From contig JALXCG010000098.1 of assembly GCA_026991065.1 (NCBI GenBank), positions 1-8,351 on the forward strand: a DNA stretch of 8,351 nucleotides. The letters are read 5' to 3'. A program made the position numbers and the translations under genes. Shown here in pieces: positions 1-8,351 of this stretch. Position 1 is the first letter of the stretch; the number at the start of each line of letters is the position of its first letter. The notes under the pieces were generated by a model. The model searched no databases. It was not told the DNA's origin and was given only the letters and a program-made list of their open reading frames with translations. This DNA comes from JALXCG01 sp026991065 [NCBI: Gemmatimonadota bacterium]. GTDB lineage: Bacteria; GCA-2686955.

Positions 1-1830
1 AGCTATCTCTATGTTTACGGGCAACTGCTATCCGAGGGGACCACAGACGACCACATTGTCTTCACGGCCTTCCGTGACGACAGCGCCGGCGGCGATACCA
101 ACAACGATGGCACGGCCACCTCGCCGGCCAAGGGTGACTGGTACAGCATCTACTTCTCCGATGCGGAGAACAGTCACCTTCTCTACACCGACCTGCGTTA
201 TGGCGGCTACTCCGCCTACGGCATGGTCCGCGTCTATCAGACCGTCACTCAGGACAATCCGGTGCGGATCGAGCATTGTTCACTGACCAATAGTTCGACC
301 AACGCCATCTATCTCTCCGGCAGCGGCCCGGTGCTGAGCCCCCTGATCGCAAACAACAGCATCAGCGACTGTGGCACGGGACATTGGGCGATCGACAACG
401 CATCCGCGAGCGTTACCTCGATCATCAGCCACAACGCCATCGATGCCAACTATGGCATCCACTCTTCAGCCGCCGGTCCCATCACCGACAACACCATTTC
501 CAATGTCGGCACCCAGGGGATCCAGATCGCGGCGGCCAACGCGGTGGTCCGCAACAACACGATCTCCGGCACTCCCTCCTATGGGATCTATGTCAACGCC
601 GCCGCGGACACGATCGATGCCAATTCGGTCACCGGAGCGACCACCGGAGCGATCTATGTCGCGGCTGCCGATGTTTCGGTGACCGACAACTCGATCGCCG
701 ACTGCACCGGCCGCGCCATCTACATGGGCAACGGTACGGCACCGATGGCGGCCTTCTCCGGCAACACCATGACCGGCGACTACGCCTATCCGGTGCGGAT
801 CCATGTGGACAATCTGCGCAATCTAGCCGACAACACATGGTCGGGCTGGACCGATCCGGCGGCCATCGAAGTTCTTGGCGGTAGTTTGACTACAAACGCC
901 GTCTGGCCGGACTTCGGCCTGCCCCTGGTCCTGCGCTACTCCAATGTAACGGTACCAGACGGAATCGGTCTTCAGTTGCCGGCGGGACTTGTCTTCAAGT
1001 TCGATAGCCGCGCCACTTTCTATGTCTACGGTCAACTCATCTCGGAGGGCACCGGCACCGATCCGATCTACTTCACATCCTTCCGGGATGACACCGTCGG
1101 CGGCGACAGCAACCTCGACGGCAATGCCACGTCGCCGGCCCGCAGCGACTGGTACAATCTCTACTTCTCGAATGCCGAAGACAGCCGCCTGGTCCACACG
1201 AACCTGCGTTGGGGCGGTTACGGCGGTTACGGCTTGGTTCGCGTCTATCACAGCGAGGACACAGCCTCGCCTGCAGTGGTACGGAACTGTGAGATTTCGG
1301 AGAGCTATTCCCACGGCATCTACGTCGAAGGCTCTGGTCCCACGCTCACGCCGGACATCTCCTACAACCACATCCATGATTGCTCCTCGTGGGCGATCTA
1401 CCATGCGGCAGCCAACCTCCAGACCACCATCGATCACAATACCTGTGACGGCAACTACGGAATCTACACCGGCGGTCCCACTCCGGTCACCAACAACACG
1501 CTGCTCAATATCGCGAATACCGGTCTGCAACTTTCGCACAGCGGTGCTCAGGCCTCCGCAAACACGATCTCCGGTCCTGCCACCTACGGCATCTACGTCA
1601 CCGCCAGCGACGTTGCGGTCGCCAGCAACACGGTGACCGGAGCCGCGGGTTACGGTCTCTACGCGTCGGCGACCCTGGGGGCTTGCTCGGCCAACTCGTT
1701 CAGCGGAACGGGTAGCTATCCAATCTATTGCAACGCGGCGGATCTCCACCGGTTGACGGCCAACACGTTTGATTGGCCCACCGCCCTCGCCTACAAGGTT
1801 ACCGGCGGTAGTGTCAGCGGCAACGTTACC
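1..1830 (+). repeat. Tandem protein modules of the + strand gene (one partial, one complete)
   Basis: Two diverged copies of a module of about 309-337 codons lie in tandem. The clearest anchor is YVYGQL followed by EGT, the DDxxGGDxNxDG loop, SPA, DWY, and LRxGGYxxYGxVRVY; it starts near base 10 and again at 1021, 1011 bases apart. The equivalent anchor in the terminal module (TVNGQL, 1945) is 924 bases further on. Boundaries set by the WPDFG and WSPFDQP motifs put the second module at 904-1830. Spacing is variable, unlike the strict 885-base spacing in the paralog. The copies are clearly related in protein but well diverged in DNA. Confidence 0.85.
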
Positions 1831-3672
1831 TGGTCCCCGTTTGATCAGCCCTACTTGATCCTGGGGAACATTACGGTGGGCGCAGGTGACACCCTGAATA
1901 TCGACGCCGGCACCATCCTGAAGATGAATGCGCGCTATTCGTTGACGGTGAACGGACAGCTCAATTCCAATGGATCGGCCGCGCGTCCGGTGGTGATTAC
2001 ATCGATCAAGGACGACACCTGGGGCGGCGATACCAACGCCAACGGCAACGCTACCTCCCCGGCGAAAGGAGACTGGTATTACGTTTCCGCTCCCAACGCG
2101 GACGCCGACGTCAACCTCCGTTACACCAATCTGTATTACGGGGGTTACTCCTCCGGATACGAGTTCTACTCCTACAACAACAGTGTGTCGATCGAGGACT
2201 GCGACATCAGCCACTCGCAATCCTACAACCTATATCTGCAGGACTGCACCGGATCGGTTCAACGCACAACGCTGGCCGGTTCGAGCTACGGTGCCTATTG
2301 CACGGGAACAACCGATGTAACTTTCACCGACTGCAACATCACCGGCAACTCCTCTTACGGCATCTACAAGAACACATCACCTTCCGTCGATGCGCGCAAC
2401 TGCTGGTGGGGTGACGCGAGCGGCCCCTATCACGCGTCGGCAAATCCCAGCGGAAACGGCGATACCGTTTCCGACAATGTCCTGTTCAACCCGTGGCTCA
2501 ACGCCGAGTTTGCAGAGGAAGCACTCACGGTAGAGCTTCTTGCTTACCAGTCGTTGATCCCGAAGGGCGGAACCTTCGACTTCAAGGAGACCCTCGCCAA
2601 CACCTATGGCGATGCCAAGACCTTCAACCATCGTTTCCGGGTCTACGACGAAGCCGGCCAACTCTACTATGAGTTCCCGCCGCAAACGATCACTCTGGCA
2701 TCGGGTGAGAGCCGCGCGACGCTTTACACGATGCGCGTGCCACCGACCGTTCCGGTTGGGGTCTACACCCTGGAAGCCAAGGCCTATGATGGCCCCACCA
2801 TCTTTGATGCAGACTCTCTTTCGGCCCAGGTCATTGACTTGGCACAGTCGCGCAGTGGGTTGGTCGCAGGCGCGGCGCTTCTGAATGATCGCGCTGGGGC
2901 GTCCGGATCCGCACCCGGTGGCGGCGACCTTGATGCCGACCGCGCCCCGCAGGGAGCACCAACCGGCGACGATGCTCTGCGGGCTGGCCAGGGACAGCGT
3001 CCCGCGGCAACTCCGGCACGGAGTCGCAGCTCGTCGACCTCGGCCTCCGGAACCCGCAGGATCGGCGCGACCACTCGCGGCAGCGCTGGATCGGCCCAGG
3101 CTCCTGGCGCTGGAACTCAGGGCGATGATCTGCGCGGAATTCAGAGCAGTCGGACCGTCACTGCCGCGCCTCCGGTGGTTCACTGGACGCTGGAAGTGGT
3201 TCAGGTGGAAACCACCCACCGCGATGCCGGCGGGGTCTACACCCGGGTTCAATCGGCAACCAGTGCACCCCTGGTCGGTGAACCGATGAGCGAAGCGGCC
3301 CAGCGCGCCGCGGATGCCGCAATTCGCGAGTTGGGGCAAGATCTTCTCGACGAGGATCCTGCCACGCTCAACTCGGAGACTCCGGCTGCTGAGTTCAGCT
3401 TCGGCCTCGCGCCGGCGGCACCGAATCCGTTCAACCCGCTCACAACGCTCTCGTTCACACTCGAGGAAACCGCTCCGACACAGTTGGTCATCTATGACCT
3501 GAGTGGTCATGTGGTCATCCGCCTGGTCGACGAGTCTCTGCCGGCCGGCCACCATTCGGTGCAGTGGAACGGCAGGAACCAGCAGGGGCAATCGGTAGCC
3601 AGCGGGGTTTACCTGGCGGTCCTCGTCACACCCGATGAGCGAGCGACGCGGCGGTTGATGCTGGTGAAGTAA
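1..3672 (+). CDS. Large secreted parallel beta-helix repeat protein with type IX-type C-terminal sorting domain (5' end outside window)
   Basis: The frame is open from base 1 to the TAA at 3670-3672, giving 1223 visible residues. The ATG at 223 lies inside a repeat module and is not the true start. Residues 1-301 are the end of one beta-helix module, 302-610 a complete module beginning WPDFG, and 611-840 a terminal module beginning WSPFDQP and ending with CWWGDASGPY (CWWG at 801-804). Residues 841-947 form an Ig-like domain (IPKGG...VPVGVYTLEAKAYDG). Residues 948-1131 are a Gly/Ala/Ser/Arg-rich linker. Residues 1132-1223 are a sorting tail with PNPFNP at 1141-1146, IYDLSGHVV, VQWNGRNQQG, SGVYLAVL and terminal RLMLVK. 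Such tails direct export by type IX secretion in the Bacteroidota superphylum, so an outer-surface or extracellular location is likely. No catalytic signature is recognisable. Adhesin, surface-layer or polysaccharide-binding roles are possible but unproven. A paralog converges on it from the right. Confidence 0.95.
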   Translation, partial: SYLYVYGQLLSEGTTDDHIVFTAFRDDSAGGDTNNDGTATSPAKGDWYSIYFSDAENSHLLYTDLRYGGYSAYGMVRVYQTVTQDNPVRIEHCSLTNSSTNAIYLSGSGPVLSPLIANNSISDCGTGHWAIDNASASVTSIISHNAIDANYGIHSSAAGPITDNTISNVGTQGIQIAAANAVVRNNTISGTPSYGIYVNAAADTIDANSVTGATTGAIYVAAADVSVTDNSIADCTGRAIYMGNGTAPMAAFSGNTMTGDYAYPVRIHVDNLRNLADNTWSGWTDPAAIEVLGGSLTTNAVWPDFGLPLVLRYSNVTVPDGIGLQLPAGLVFKFDSRATFYVYGQLISEGTGTDPIYFTSFRDDTVGGDSNLDGNATSPARSDWYNLYFSNAEDSRLVHTNLRWGGYGGYGLVRVYHSEDTASPAVVRNCEISESYSHGIYVEGSGPTLTPDISYNHIHDCSSWAIYHAAANLQTTIDHNTCDGNYGIYTGGPTPVTNNTLLNIANTGLQLSHSGAQASANTISGPATYGIYVTASDVAVASNTVTGAAGYGLYASATLGACSANSFSGTGSYPIYCNAADLHRLTANTFDWPTALAYKVTGGSVSGNVTWSPFDQPYLILGNITVGAGDTLNIDAGTILKMNARYSLTVNGQLNSNGSAARPVVITSIKDDTWGGDTNANGNATSPAKGDWYYVSAPNADADVNLRYTNLYYGGYSSGYEFYSYNNSVSIEDCDISHSQSYNLYLQDCTGSVQRTTLAGSSYGAYCTGTTDVTFTDCNITGNSSYGIYKNTSPSVDARNCWWGDASGPYHASANPSGNGDTVSDNVLFNPWLNAEFAEEALTVELLAYQSLIPKGGTFDFKETLANTYGDAKTFNHRFRVYDEAGQLYYEFPPQTITLASGESRATLYTMRVPPTVPVGVYTLEAKAYDGPTIFDADSLSAQVIDLAQSRSGLVAGAALLNDRAGASGSAPGGGDLDADRAPQGAPTGDDALRAGQGQRPAATPARSRSSSTSASGTRRIGATTRGSAGSAQAPGAGTQGDDLRGIQSSRTVTAAPPVVHWTLEVVQVETTHRDAGGVYTRVQSATSAPLVGEPMSEAAQRAADAAIRELGQDLLDEDPATLNSETPAAEFSFGLAPAAPNPFNPLTTLSFTLEETAPTQLVIYDLSGHVVIRLVDESLPAGHHSVQWNGRNQQGQSVASGVYLAVLVTPDERATRRLMLVK
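493..834 (+). repeat. Run of 22-residue parallel beta-helix rungs
   Basis: Five consecutive rungs can be read, starting at 493, 559, 625, 691 and 766. The first three are exactly 66 bases (22 residues); the last two are 25 and 23 residues. Each begins with a T/S-I/V/M-S/T/A pattern (TISN, TISG, SVTG, SIAD, TMTG), has a Gly-Ile-Tyr-Val-like strand in the middle (YGIYV, GAIYV, RAIYM), and ends in Asn (NN, AN, DN, GN, DN). This is the classic PbH1-type pattern of a right-handed parallel beta-helix, with an Asn at the turn of each coil. Confidence 0.85.
1831..2520 (+). other. Terminal beta-helix module with CWWG cap (+ strand gene)
   Basis: This last module differs from the internal ones. It opens with WSPFDQPYLILGNITV, carries the loop GGDTNANGNATSP, and has several cysteines (EDCDIS, LQDCTG, YCTG, TDCNIT). 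It ends in NCWWGDASGPYHAS followed by NPSGNGD, TVSDNV and NPW. The CWWG...GP...GD.VS..V.F.PW sequence recurs at the end of many bacterial beta-helix proteins and probably caps the helix. It aligns better with the terminal module of the paralog than with its own upstream modules. Confidence 0.8.
3394..3669 (+). other. C-terminal type IX secretion-type sorting domain (+ strand gene)
   Basis: The tail begins FSFGLAPAAPNPFNP (PNPFNP at 3421-3438). It continues with alternating beta strands LSFTLEE, QLVIYDLSGHVV, HHSVQWNGRNQQG, SGVYLAVLVT, and ends RRLMLVK just before the TAA. This is the standard layout of Por-secretion / FlgD-Ig-like tails of type IX cargo. The assignment rests on motif recognition, without a profile search. 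Confidence 0.85.
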
Positions 3673-3688
3673 GGAGAGTCCACGCGAA

Positions 3689-3718
3689 TCCGCGGAACAG
3701 CCGATGCTGTTCCGCGGA
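3689..3718 (+). terminator. GC-rich 13-bp perfect hairpin 16 bases after the + gene stop
   Basis: TCCGCGGAACAGC (3689-3701) pairs perfectly with GCTGTTCCGCGGA (3706-3718) around a CGAT loop. There is no T-run behind it, so it is not a textbook intrinsic terminator. It may act as a U-less terminator or as a 3'-end stabiliser of the + gene mRNA. Its last base is also the first base of the next stem. Confidence 0.55.
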
Positions 3719-3762
3719 GCTGAGCCCGAGCAAGCTGCACAACGGGCTCAGCTTTGTGCAGC
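3718..3762 (+). terminator. Interleaved competing stems (A-B-A'-B') after the + gene
   Basis: Stem A pairs AGCTGAGCCCG (3718-3728) with CGGGCTCAGCT (3743-3753), 11 perfect base pairs. Stem B pairs GCTGCACAA (3734-3742) with TTGTGCAGC (3754-3762), 9 perfect base pairs. The arms interleave with no spacer between B, A' and B', so a full pseudoknot looks sterically impossible and the two stems should be mutually exclusive. Stem A is followed by only a short TTT (3753-3755), making it a weak terminator candidate. The structure is certain at the level of complementarity; its role is inferred. Confidence 0.55.
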
Positions 3763-4016
3763 ACGCCATCTGCTACTGATGGCACCGGCGGCGCCGTCGC
3801 GCTCGGGCTGTCGCACGCTGCTCAGTGAGAAACCCCCTGGGGCTCCCAACTGACCGGCCGGGCAATGCGTCGGGCCAACGCGCTGCGCCGGTATGGCTGC
3901 GGGCTGCACCGGAGAACACCCGTTGTTCCACGCACTCAAAGAGCAGCGTGGAGCCAAAGCGCTCTGCCGCCACGCTCCGGCTGTTTCGGCGAGATCCCGT
4001 GACGGGATGGTCCAGG

Positions 4017-4066
4017 CTGCTCCGATGGAAAGAGCACCGGTTGGGTGAATTGCACCGCCGGAGCAG
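4017..4066. other. Stem-loop of unknown role in the gap
   Basis: CTGCTCCG (4017-4024) pairs perfectly with CGGAGCAG (4059-4066). Inside the loop, GGTG (4044-4047) can pair with CACC (4053-4056). The sequence that follows, TTTCAGACAAAAAA, does not form a good terminator on either strand. A smaller hairpin, ATCCCG/CGGGAT with a 3-base loop, lies just upstream at 3994-4008. An RNA element is possible but unsupported beyond the pairing. Confidence 0.3.
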
Positions 4067-4240
4067 TTTCAGACAAAAAAGGCGGCATCGTGGACTTGCG
4101 TCCAGAGGGATTCGGCTGTGGTTGCGACACTACCGCACGTGCAGCCAATCACACTCCTCCATAGGATTCTCTGCACGGCACCGGATTGAGAGGATCGGCC
4201 CGCTACTCTACCCGCTTGCATTCGAAATCTCGTTCAACGC

Positions 4241-4277
4241 AAGGCGCCCGAGCCGCAATCGACCCGGGCGTCTTTTT
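4241..4277 (+). terminator. Intrinsic terminator, + strand
   Basis: AAGGCGCCCG (4241-4250) pairs with CGGGCGTCTT (4265-4274) around a 14-base loop. There is one G-U pair, and the stem is followed by further T bases (TTTTT at 4273-4277). This fits a rho-independent terminator reading on the + strand. It lies 568 bases past the + gene stop, so it would catch read-through from that gene or end an unseen + transcript. On the - strand the same stem is followed only by GCGTTG, so it is a poor terminator for the - gene. Confidence 0.6.
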
Positions 4278-4295
4278 GCGCGACAGGCTCCTGGT

Positions 4296-4308
4296 CCGCG
4301 AAACGCGG
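4296..4308 (-). other. Short GC hairpin just after the - gene stop
   Basis: On the + strand CCGCG (4296-4300) and CGCGG (4304-4308) flank a 3-base AAA loop, only four bases beyond the - gene stop codon. The stem is short and has no T-run after it in the - direction. It may contribute to the 3' end of the - mRNA, together with the 4241-4274 stem. Confidence 0.3.
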
Positions 4309-4312
4309 GGTG

Positions 4313-7300
4313 TTACTTCACCAACAACATCCGCTGCAGGGCACGTTTTTCGCCGGCGACGAGAAGCGCAGTATACACTCCACTCGGAACCGCGCTGCCC
4401 GAATCACTCCGACCGTCCCAGCGCACGGCGTGATATCCAGCGGGCTCCTCACCATCCACCAAGGTGCGAACAAGGTGCCCGGCGGCATCGTAGATCCGCA
4501 ACTGAACCATTCCGGGCTCCTCCAGCGAGAATTGCAACCGTGTGGATGGATTGAAGGGATTCGGGGCCGCCGGGGCCATGCCGAAATGCGCCTCAGGCAA
4601 GGGCGGCCGCCCCTGGTTCAGCTCCGGGTGGTCGGTCGCAACATCCTCGGCTGCGGAATCCCCTGCTCTTTCCCCGGCATGACTCACCAGCACCCGCTCG
4701 TTCTCCGCCACCGGAATCCGCCCAAAGATCGTGCTCTCCATCTGATTCAGGATGAGCATGAACCCATCCCCTTCGTAAAGCGTGGCGCCTTGCGATGAAG
4801 TTGTCGTGACGGCGCGGGCTGTCCGGCCTCTTCGTTGCCCGCCCTCGATCGCTCCGCCATTCCGGGTGCTGTCGCCATCCAGTCGCTGGCCGTGACCATC
4901 AGTGGTGTCTTTCTCTTTTTCGATGGCGCCGGAACTCTTCTGATTGCCGCCGGGCGAATTGGCGGCCAGGTCGATGACCTCCACACCGAACGAATCGGAG
5001 TCCAACTCGGTTGGCCCGTCGAATGCCTGCGCCTCCAGCGTGTAGAGCCCGACCGGAACACCGTTCGGGACCTTCATGCTGTAGAGATAGGTGCGGGACT
5101 CGCCGGCGGCCAATGTCACCGGAGTGCTCTGGAAAGTATGGAAGGGATCACCGGCCCCATCCAGCACCCGGAAGCGGTGAGTGAAAGAGACCTCCTCCGC
5201 GGAAGTATTCGCAAGCACCTCCTTGAAGTCACCGGTTCCACCACGCGGAATGATCGACTGGAAGGGCGTGAGTTGTACCACAACGGCATTCGCGGTGTAT
5301 TCAATGTCCCGCCACGGCGAAAAATCGACATGGTCCGAAACGTTATCGCCGTTTCCGCTGGGATTGGCGGTGGCGTTGTAGGGTCCACTTGCATCCCCCC
5401 ACCAACAGTTCTCCGCAAGAATCTCCACGCCGGAATCCTGGTTGTAAACACCCCACGTGCTGTTGTTCTCGATGTTGCAGTTGCTCAAGACTGCCGCTGA
5501 ACCGTTTCTGCAGTAGACACCCTGCGGAGATTCAGTGATGGAACTGCGTTCGAAATGAGCCGCTGAGTTGTCGAGGTAAGCCCCGTAGGTGCTGCACTTG
5601 CGGATCACTCCGTCGGCGAAAACGGGATCATTGTCGTGGGCGTAGAGCCCGTAACCGCTCGAATAGCCGGCGTACTCGATATTCGTAAAGCGGAGGTCGC
5701 CGAACGACCCGGCCGAAGGAAACGAGATGTGATACCAATCACCCGGATTCGGCGAGGTCGCGGCATCGTTTCCGTTGGTGTCTCCGCCCCACGCATCGTC
5801 GTGGATCGACGTAAAGACGACAGGAAGCCCCGGATCACCCGCGGCAATCAGGCCGCCGTTCACGGTCCAGCCGTAGCGATTCATCTTGATCAGGACACCC
5901 GCATCAATGGTCAGCGTGTCACCACTCGCGATGGTCACACTACCATCGATCACGTAGGGCACGCCCAGTGACCGCCAGGTCGCGTTGTTCTCGATCGTCC
6001 CCCCGATCACCCGGTAGCTCTTCGCCAGAGGCCAGTCAAAGGTGTTGCTGGAGAGCCAGCGAACATCGTTCGGGTTCAGGCGCACCGGACTATCTCCGGT
6101 GCCGGAGAACGAGTTGCCGACGAAACTGGCGATTGATCCGCTCTGGGTGTAGATTCCCCACTCGGTATCGCCGGTTGTCGTGTTTCCGGTTACAGTGGAG
6201 CCGGTTCCGTATATATAGATCGCGTAATTGGTTGCGTCCGTGAACGTGTTGTTGGTTACGGGACTCGCGGAACGCACATAGACGCCGTAGGGACCGGTGA
6301 ACTGGTTTCCCGTGATGTTCGGCAGGATCGTGGTCGAGGAGTTGTAAACGGCCCAACTGGGACAGGTGCTGAATGTATTCGCCGCAATCAGCGGTGTACT
6401 GGTCGATGATCCTTCGACATAAACGCCGTAGTGGCTCGAGTGTTCTATCGTTGAGTTCTGAATCACTGGAGCGGGATCGGCAAGCTCGTTGAAATTCAGG
6501 TAGATCACACCGCGGTCATCGCCATAGTAGGTATAGTATCCGCCATAGCGAATCTGTGTGTGGTCAAGGCGGCTGCCGGTGCCATTGGTGAAGTTCAAAC
6601 GCCACCAGTCTCCAGCAGCAGGGGTTGAACTGCCTTCGTCACCGTTGGTGTCCCCGGCCACGGTGTCATCCTTGTATGACGTGAAAACAATGGGGGCAAC
6701 CGCTGTCCCCTCGGCCAAAAGAGTTCCACTGACGGTGAAGCTTGTGCGCGCACTGAACTTGACCACAGATCCCTCGGTCAACTGCAGGCTGATGCCGGAA
6801 GGAACTGTTACGTGGCTGTAAACCATGACCAGCGGGAGGCTGGAAAAATCCGGCCAGGTCGTTGAAGCATTGAGAGTTCCGCCGATGGTTTCGTAGCCGC
6901 GGGCAGCGGGGCAGTCGAAGCTGTTCAAGGTGAGGTGACGGATGTCATCAGCGTGGACCCGGACCGGGAATGCGCCGGTTCCACCAAAGCTGTTGCCGGA
7001 GAAAGCCCCCAGCGCGCCCGAGCCGTTCTGGGTGTAGAGCCCGTAGTTGGTGGTGCCGGTGGTGGTGTTGCCGGTAATCGACGCCCCCGAGCCGTAGACA
7101 TAGATCGCGTAGCTGGTTGCATCGGCAAACGTGTTGTCCGTCACCGGACTGGCGGAGCGCACATAGACCCCTTTCGGGACCGTGAACTGATTCTGCGCGA
7201 CATTCGGCAGGAGCGAGGTTGAGGTGTTGTATACCGCCCAGTTCGGACAATCGTTGAAGCTATTCGATATGATTTGGGGCTCGCTGGCGGAGGAGCCTTC

Positions 7301-8351
7301 GATGTAGATGCCGTAGCTGCTGGCGTGCGCGATCGTGCAGTCCTGAATGACGGGAGCGGGATCCGCATAGGAGTTGAAATTCAGGTAGATGATCCCGCGC
7401 TCATCCCCATAGTAGGTGTAATAGCCCCCGTAGCGGATGTCGGCGTGAACCAGGCGGCTGCCGGCGCCGTTGCTGAAGTTGAGGCGCCACCAATCTCCGC
7501 TGGCGGGAGAACTGGTGTCTCCGTCACCATTGGTATCCCCGGCTGCCGTGTCGTCCTTGTATGACGTGAACACGATCGGAGCATCAACGCTCCCTTCCGC
7601 AAGCAGCGTTCCGTTGGTCTGAATGCTGGTCCGCGCACTGAACTTGATCACCGAGCCTTCAGCGAGCGTCAGCGTGACCCCGTCCGGAATTGTGAGCGTC
7701 GTATAGACCATCACCAGCGGCCAGGTGGAAAAGTCCGGCCAGGTGGCCGACGTGCTGAGTTGACCACCCAGGGTCTCATAACCCCGCCCGTTCGGATAAG
7801 AGTAGCTGTTCGCGGTGATTCGCCGAACATCCTCGGCGTGGATGCGGATCGGGAATGCCCCGGTTCCGCCAAAGCTGTTGCCCGAGAGGGCCGCCAGCGC
7901 GCCCGAGCCATTTTGGGTGTAGAGCCCGTAGTCGGTGTTGCCGGTGGTGGTGTTGCCGGTAATCGACGCCCCCGAGCCGTAGACATAGATCGCGTAGCTG
8001 GTTGCATCGGCAAACGTGTTGTCCGTCACCGGACTGGCGGAGCGCACATAGACCCCTTTCGGGACCGTGAACTGATTCTGCGCGACATTCGGCAGGAGCG
8101 AGGTTGAGGTGTTGTATACCGCCCAGTTCGGACAATCGTTGAAGCTATTCGATATGATTTGGGGCTCGCTGGCGGAGGAGCCTTCGATGTAGATGCCGTA
8201 GCTGCTGGCGTGCGCGATCGTGCAGTCCTGAATGACGGGAGCGGGATCCGCATAGGAGTTGAAATTCAGGTAGATGATCCCGCGCTCATCCCCATAGTAG
8301 GTGTAATAGCCCCCGTAGCGGATGTCGGCGTGAACCAGGCGGCTGCCGGCG
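4313..8351 (-). CDS. Large secreted parallel beta-helix repeat protein, paralog of the + strand gene, with type IX-type sorting domain (5' end outside window)
   Basis: The frame is open from the right edge to the TAA at 4315-4313, giving 1345 visible residues. The GTG at 8047-8045 is inside a repeat (GVYVRSAS) and is not a real start. Residues 1-203 are part of a module; 204-498 and 499-791 are complete modules beginning WPDFS. Residues 792-1020 are a terminal module beginning WRSLG with CWWG at 982-985. Residues 1021-1128 are an Ig-like domain (IPRGG...VPVGLYTLEAQAFDG), and about 1129-1253 a hydrophilic linker. Residues 1254-1345 are a sorting tail with PNPFNP at 1263-1268, IYDAAGHLVRTLVDG, VRWDGRSDSG and terminal RMLLVK. 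Domain order matches the + strand gene throughout, but the internal modules carry a family-specific YYTYYGDxRGxIYLNFN segment. Two modules share a perfect 413-base DNA repeat. The protein is probably exported by type IX secretion. Function is unknown and no active site is recognisable. Confidence 0.95.
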   Translation of the reverse strand, partial: AGSRLVHADIRYGGYYTYYGDERGIIYLNFNSYADPAPVIQDCTIAHASSYGIYIEGSSASEPQIISNSFNDCPNWAVYNTSTSLLPNVAQNQFTVPKGVYVRSASPVTDNTFADATSYAIYVYGSGASITGNTTTGNTDYGLYTQNGSGALAALSGNSFGGTGAFPIRIHAEDVRRITANSYSYPNGRGYETLGGQLSTSATWPDFSTWPLVMVYTTLTIPDGVTLTLAEGSVIKFSARTSIQTNGTLLAEGSVDAPIVFTSYKDDTAAGDTNGDGDTSSPASGDWWRLNFSNGAGSRLVHADIRYGGYYTYYGDERGIIYLNFNSYADPAPVIQDCTIAHASSYGIYIEGSSASEPQIISNSFNDCPNWAVYNTSTSLLPNVAQNQFTVPKGVYVRSASPVTDNTFADATSYAIYVYGSGASITGNTTTGTTNYGLYTQNGSGALGAFSGNSFGGTGAFPVRVHADDIRHLTLNSFDCPAARGYETIGGTLNASTTWPDFSSLPLVMVYSHVTVPSGISLQLTEGSVVKFSARTSFTVSGTLLAEGTAVAPIVFTSYKDDTVAGDTNGDEGSSTPAAGDWWRLNFTNGTGSRLDHTQIRYGGYYTYYGDDRGVIYLNFNELADPAPVIQNSTIEHSSHYGVYVEGSSTSTPLIAANTFSTCPSWAVYNSSTTILPNITGNQFTGPYGVYVRSASPVTNNTFTDATNYAIYIYGTGSTVTGNTTTGDTEWGIYTQSGSIASFVGNSFSGTGDSPVRLNPNDVRWLSSNTFDWPLAKSYRVIGGTIENNATWRSLGVPYVIDGSVTIASGDTLTIDAGVLIKMNRYGWTVNGGLIAAGDPGLPVVFTSIHDDAWGGDTNGNDAATSPNPGDWYHISFPSAGSFGDLRFTNIEYAGYSSGYGLYAHDNDPVFADGVIRKCSTYGAYLDNSAAHFERSSITESPQGVYCRNGSAAVLSNCNIENNSTWGVYNQDSGVEILAENCWWGDASGPYNATANPSGNGDNVSDHVDFSPWRDIEYTANAVVVQLTPFQSIIPRGGTGDFKEVLANTSAEEVSFTHRFRVLDGAGDPFHTFQSTPVTLAAGESRTYLYSMKVPNGVPVGLYTLEAQAFDGPTELDSDSFGVEVIDLAANSPGGNQKSSGAIEKEKDTTDGHGQRLDGDSTRNGGAIEGGQRRGRTARAVTTTSSQGATLYEGDGFMLILNQMESTIFGRIPVAENERVLVSHAGERAGDSAAEDVATDHPELNQGRPPLPEAHFGMAPAAPNPFNPSTRLQFSLEEPGMVQLRIYDAAGHLVRTLVDGEEPAGYHAVRWDGRSDSGSAVPSGVYTALLVAGEKRALQRMLLVK
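4316..4591 (-). other. C-terminal type IX secretion-type sorting domain (- strand gene)
   Basis: Reading on the - strand, the tail starts AHFGMAPAAPNPFNP (PNPFNP at 4564-4547). It continues LQFSLEE, QLRIYDAAGHLVRTLVDG, YHAVRWDGRSDSG, SGVYTALLVAG, and ends RMLLVK before the stop. It shares strand order and key residues with the tail of the + strand gene and is closer to the family consensus (RTLVDG, WDGRSDSG). Confidence 0.85.
5290..5977 (-). other. Terminal beta-helix module with CWWG cap (- strand gene)
   Basis: This module opens WRSLGVPYVIDGSVTI, carries GGDTNGNDAATSP, then YAGYSSGYGLYAH. It has cysteine-bearing rungs (RKCSTYGAY, VYCRNG, SNCNIENN) and the cap NCWWGDASGPYNAT, then NPSGNGD, NVSDHVDFSPW. 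It matches the terminal module of the + strand gene in order and cysteine use. That gene shares 22 identical bases in this cap region, lying as an inverted pair at 2443-2464 and 5344-5365. Confidence 0.8.
7054..7466 (-). repeat. Perfect direct repeat, copy 1 (413 bases)
   Basis: Compared base by base with 7939-8351, I find no difference in 413 bases, synonymous positions included. On the low-coordinate side the identity stops at a mismatch at 7053 (7938), with another at 7048 (7933). On the other side it is limited only by the window edge. It encodes the end of the GDWW/IRYGGYY segment and most helix rungs of one module. Confidence 0.95.
7939..8351 (-). repeat. Perfect direct repeat, copy 2 (413 bases, cut by window edge)
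   Basis: This is the second copy of the 7054-7466 sequence, 885 bases away and in the same reading frame. It runs to the last base of the window, so its real length is at least 413 bases. Confidence 0.95.

Follow-up and report, generated by a model that had tools for sequence, protein, structure and literature searches.

Probable recent segmental exchange among tandem beta-helix modules of a gene from a Gemmatimonadota bacterium

Two neighbouring modules of a long repetitive gene, gene A, share a tract of 413 bases without a single mismatch, while the remainder of the same modules has diverged extensively at silent sites. The gene lies in a window of 8,351 bases, the whole stretch of DNA analysed here, which is the entire contig C98 (positions 1–8351) of a draft genome that totals 4,138,175 bases in 902 contigs and is 83.81% complete; the genome is probably a metagenome bin. 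Our preferred reading, to which we assign a probability of about 0.6, is segmental exchange among at least three modules, with a second contig, C530, carrying the N-terminus of gene A and with one spacer missing from the assembly. A segment of one module would have been copied recently onto the matching place in its neighbours by homologous recombination within gene A, through gene conversion, either alone or after unequal exchange. In this way, three modules or more (M1 on C530, M2 and M3 in the window) would have come to carry a near-identical core, with the remainder of each module keeping its old divergence.

The original prediction had proposed two mismatch-free copies at a spacing of exactly 885 bases. 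Direct comparison gave precisely this result, with 413 of 413 bases identical at an offset of 885 (Table 1). Its estimate of about ten differences immediately beside the tract turned out to be exact, as 10 of 87 positions differ between 6967–7053 and 7852–7938; it was also right that divergence grows further on, with 139 of 472 positions differing between 6582–7053 and 7467–7938, and that the modules are mutually in frame. Compared over whole units, M2 and M3 are identical at 746 of 885 positions, which makes them the most alike whole-unit pair. In the codon-aligned module pair, none of 5000 column permutations reached the observed run of 412 among 639 aligned columns, and for the whole unit of 885 bases a simple chance bound comes to about 10^-28; together, these results rule out chance as the cause of the identity. 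The one border seen between M2 and M3, at 7053/7054, is graded, identity falling from 91% in the 45-base interval across it to 87% and then to 69%, and an older, wider exchange may lie beneath the newer one. The right edge of the identity coincides with the contig end at 8351: since the window is the whole contig, identity stops where the sequence stops.

Table 1 Features of the window and their positions on contig C98
Feature	Position	Strand	Remarks
Gene A, 5' end cut by contig end	4313..8350	-	encodes 1345 residues: beta-helix modules followed by a FlgD-Ig tail
C-terminal FlgD Ig-like / type IX-type tail	4367..4537	-	residues 1272-1328; PF13860 above cut-off
Homologous stretch in next module, M4	6170..6579	-	73% DNA identity, silent sites diverged
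Module M3, natural register	6827..7711	-	predicted right-handed beta-helix
Inner copy of the identical tract (module M3, gene A)	7054..7466	-	137 whole codons; 413/413 against 7939-8351
Rest of 885-base unit, diverged	7467..7938	-	139/472 differ from 6582-7053
Identical tract, outer copy, module M2	7939..8351	-	runs to contig end
Part of tract common to M1 on C530 (5146-5362)	7984..8200, also 7099-7315	-	runs of 127 and then 89 identical bases around a single mismatch
Gene B, 5' end cut by other contig end	1..3672	+	paralogue, convergent with gene A; modules of 1011 and 924 bases here
Exact 127-base overlap with end of C260 (6771-6897)	1..127	+	signature of a k = 127 assembly graph

Silent sites show that the tract is far younger than the modules containing it. 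Between M2 and M3, the 137 codons of the tract contain 0 synonymous differences at 97.3 synonymous sites, and 71 of 71 fourfold sites are identical, whereas the remaining 158 codons of the unit have a pS of 0.603 (dS about 1.2), with agreement at 36 of 67 fourfold sites. Silent divergence is also evident when the tract is compared with M4, where pS is 0.628 (dS about 1.36), 23 of 52 fourfold sites are identical and the proteins are 71% identical. This bears out the earlier proposal that the event was recent relative to the age of the modules. One could imagine strong protein-level selection keeping both tracts alike, as the tract encodes a regular beta-helix stretch; however, protein constraint would not preserve 71 of 71 fourfold sites, and the equivalent tract of M4 is free to differ to the extent just given, so the probability of this alternative is close to nil. 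As a source of the identity, we consider protein selection ruled out by the fourfold sites.

Bounded silent-site identity within old divergence is what intragenic gene conversion and concerted evolution leave in repeat arrays. M2 and M3 display such bounded silent-site identity between otherwise diverged repeats, which fits the gene conversion class of recent intragenic exchange; compared with known arrays of this kind, gene A shows nothing distinctive, one border of its tract being the contig end.

The product of gene A is best explained as a secreted protein of tandem, predicted right-handed beta-helix modules of about 295 residues each. The gene matches the profiles PF13229 (141.7 bits, cut-off 25.9), PF05048 (112.7 bits) and PF13860 (47.5 bits, cut-off 27), its modules are spaced by 295 and 290 residues, and M3 and M4 are 65% identical in protein sequence. 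An AlphaFold2 model of M3, computed from a 17-row alignment, has a mean pLDDT of 90.3 and a pTM of 0.91, and in this model the identical tract corresponds to residues 83–219, a series of strands in the middle of the module. By profile and by predicted fold, gene A belongs to the right-handed beta-helix class (PF13229), alongside NosD and the right-handed parallel beta-helix repeat proteins (PF13229, PF05048). Fold comparison of the M3 model against the PDB returned only generic beta-helix neighbours, all weaker than E 0.001, with query-normalised TM-scores of 0.50 or less among the 50 listed of 449 rows. By sequence, there were weak matches to five PDB chains, of C5-epimerases and alpha-galactosidases (E 0.0006 to 0.0054); unlike for these enzymes, no catalytic role could be assigned to the gene A product.

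The C-terminal tail of gene A scores 18.8 bits against TIGR04183 (Por_Secre_tail), below the cut-off of 23, and gene B scores 33.0 bits against Por_Secre_tail, over it. We searched the genome for two components of the type IX secretion machinery, SprA_N and the PorV family. A single SprA_N match over the cut-off was found, in a frame of 2054 residues (0 of 14 control genomes), together with nine matches to the PorV family, four of them over the cut-off (1 of 14 controls had a match, and none had one over the cut-off). Since components of the machinery are matched in the genome, type IX export is a plausible route for the gene A protein.

The original prediction had posed a choice between duplication and conversion of two copies, which proved too simple, as a third, partial copy of the tract sits on C530. 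The final 217 bases of this 5362-base contig match both window copies at 216 positions, and the sole mismatch is synonymous. The open frame on C530 starts at 4498 with a signal-like hydrophobic stretch, as judged by eye, contains one module (M1) and runs off the contig end. Because gene A has no start, C530 lacks the remainder of its gene and C530 ends inside the tract, this contig is most simply the N-terminus of gene A, and its sequence probably represents that part of the gene. The border of M1, at 5145/5146, is sharp: all 36 fourfold sites are identical in the 72 codons common to M1 and M2, and in the 50 codons ahead of the border identity is 0.68, with agreement at 6 of 16 fourfold sites. 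The tract differs in extent between M1/M2 and M2/M3, which points to more than a single segmental event. At 1175–4185, ahead of the module gene, C530 (L026) contains frames that by eye resemble adenylate kinase and a spermidine-synthase-like membrane protein.

The contig ends themselves carry information on how the modules are arranged. The last 127 bases of C530 are its first 127-mer common to the tract, matching in length the overlap between the window and C260. Ends of this sort are typical of contigs taken from a de Bruijn graph with k = 127, a value that is the largest metaSPAdes setting. We built the k = 127 graph for three models, namely two copies, an exact extra 885-base unit, and a third module with its own spacer, the missing spacer being modelled as 472 bases like the known one. 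The two-copy and extra-unit models produce branch points only at 8110–7984 and 8065–7939, while the third-module model, alone among the three, turns the 127-mer at the contig end, 8351–8225, into a branch point; it also produces an additional branch at 7178–7052, which we ascribe to the random placeholder. The third-module model fits best, because the contig ends at 8351, a branch point in that model only. Position 8351 would accordingly mark a branch of the assembly graph, beyond which the spacer of a further module is presumably absent from the assembly.

This modelled graph favours segmental exchange over duplication of one 885-base unit. Tandem duplication of a whole unit by unequal exchange, with the identity going on beyond 8351 for the rest of the unit, would account for the exact 885-base spacing of in-frame units, and would agree with the clustering by gene of the inner modules of genes A and B. 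A repeated exact unit, however, yields no branch point at 8351, and what the module on C530 shares is limited to the core and excludes the stretch upstream, leaving such a duplication quite unlikely.

Alternatively, only two copies might exist. The gene would then run from C530 through the core, along 7938 to 7467 and into the inner copy; the outer copy in the window would really be the C530 module, and 8111–8351 would be a false duplicate of 7226–7466, created when the assembler took the wrong branch. Passages in PMC6868369 describe short-read assemblies that misreport tandem repeats, C530 does join the tract at 8110/7225, and by our reasoning a graph of two copies that lacks no edge has balanced flow. 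Even in this arrangement, two modules would have about 262 near-identical bases in common, of which 217 are seen and 45 inferred. What tells against it is that 8351 is not a branch point in the two-copy graph, so that a contig end at exactly this place goes unexplained, and that a shared edge of 172 bases should be easily crossed by read pairs. We regard this arrangement as unlikely, though deserving to be taken seriously.

The assembler could also have affected the mismatch count. Metagenome assemblers merge small differences into a consensus, and passages in PMC8021871 describe the bulge collapsing of metaSPAdes as aggressive. Since assemblers write a consensus over small differences, we read zero mismatches as few or none, with consensus assembly possibly contributing. 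A stronger version, in which the modules or strain variants are truly a few percent apart and the assembler erased the mismatches, is in keeping with this behaviour and with the fragmented state of the genome at 83.81% completeness. Yet one silent difference between C530 and the window survived, albeit with fewer than 127 identical bases on one side, so that no bulge would form there, and a divergence of a few percent would still leave the contrast with the diverged flanks; we judge the stronger version very unlikely.

Segmental exchange with a missing spacer draws on a branch-point argument which presumes that contigs end only at graph vertices. Endings of this type were observed in two overlaps involving three ends: the right end of C530, and the right end of C260 with the left end of C98. 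With its overlaps, the modelled missing edge measures about 726 bases, against 1545 for the shortest of 20 contigs sampled, and a piece so short could have been left out of the genome. Our contig negatives apply to the longer contigs, since every sampled contig shorter than 3,000 bases (9 of 20) reads as N. Among these longer contigs, none for the partner branch at 8351 was found in 26 of 26 candidates scored and then in 40 scored of 62. Likewise, no branch partner for the break between C260 and C98 was found among the 40 of 56 candidates scored. A break without a partner implies that breaks with unseen causes occur, which weakens the argument from 8351.

To place gene A among related genes, we compared its modules with those of gene B and of two homologues. 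Across the 127-base overlap, gene B joins in frame to C260, giving a seven-module paralogue of 2746 residues. Two homologous genes come from two genera of one family: gene C (contig C127, in the same genome, G000, as the window), with 6 modules by anchor count, and gene D (contig C56, G001), with 5. A contig end does cut gene D, though downstream of all five modules, and gain or loss of an inner module may separate these two genes. In a tree of 23 modules from genes A–D, in which M1 and M2 are incomplete, the modules of C and D pair by position, with strong support (ultrafast bootstrap/SH-aLRT) for C1–D1 (98/97) and C5–D4 (96/99); the pairs C2–D2 (82/84) and C6–D5 (89/90) have moderate support, below the star threshold, and the tree gives no resolved position for C3, C4 and D3. 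One group (100/100) unites the last modules of all four genes, whereas M1–M4 of gene A (98/100) and B2–B6 of gene B (94/98, not starred) group by gene. This clustering of the inner A and B modules indicates that intragenic module gain or homogenisation has occurred. Taken with the positional pairing of C and D, it means that modules have long kept their identity in one gene lineage, while other lineages have seen them multiplied or homogenised. As a general habit, whole-array concerted evolution is unsupported, given the positional pairing of four C/D module pairs.

A segment permutation test with 300 permutations was applied to 56 module pairs (10 in gene A, 21 in B, 15 in C and 10 in D; p uncorrected). 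Among the best 8 pairs per gene, the floor of 1/301 was reached by M1–M2, M1–M3 and M2–M3 in gene A and by B1–B2 (24 variable sites) and B3–B4 in gene B; the best p was 0.0066 in gene C and 0.146 in gene D. B3 and B4, on C260, are 80% identical, with patches near or above 0.9 and no exact tract. Such patches suggest older exchanges in the paralogue, gene B, too.

Exact direct self-repeats of at least 40 bases were absent, among the part listed, from C127, C260, C530, the G001 gene region (L029), L031, L032 and L034. Elsewhere, L033 contained only a run of one-base period and L035 only its two contig ends; the trivial runs of sampled contigs consisting entirely of N were not counted. The ends of L035, 1–141 and 9499–9639, match base for base along 141 bases, as would be the case for a circular or looped path through an assembly graph. 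A scan of the genome collection, from which near genomes were possibly omitted, gave 34 pattern matches and five distant loci, whose best segments had 26–36% identity; the 40 relatives included one genome of the same family.

Genes of comparable architecture have been described. Passages in PMC8201768 and PMC9704523 present Periscope Proteins as proteins of the bacterial surface in which folded repeats, each longer than 50 residues, follow one another in tandem, propose that DNA identity between repeats drives intragenic recombination, and give the PATR repeats of ShdA, in 4–6 copies, as a beta-helical example. Change of length through recombination is well documented in such proteins with DNA-identical repeats. 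Gene A likewise has tandem repeats of more than 50 residues (295 and 290). Unlike in Periscope Proteins, its identity is confined to part of the module, and identity over whole repeats is not high (746 of 885 bases for M2/M3, 65% in protein for M3/M4). The Ilm adhesin of Yersinia ruckeri has DNA-identical tandem repeats whose number was misreported by short-read assemblies, as passages in PMC6868369 describe; its repeats are Ig-like, about 300 bases long and present in more than 20 copies, whereas gene A has few, large and mostly diverged modules. In a literature search covering titles and the starts of abstracts, no title named the gene A family.

One may go further and picture the central coils as an exchangeable cassette, with a core of 262–413 bases repeatedly pasted into M1–M3 and the lineage reshuffling a type IX-secreted surface fibre by targeted intragenic conversion; we consider this a long shot. 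Exchange in repetitive surface-protein genes is an ordinary process, of which gene A is a further example of a well-described kind, and no general idea on repeat evolution is altered. For practical work a caution applies: two contigs probably each hold a part of the gene, with the break precisely at the repeat, so neither the number of modules nor a 'perfect' identity should be taken from the assembly. What gene A provides is one clean case of recent exchange between large, predicted beta-helix modules, in a lineage with type IX secretion components.
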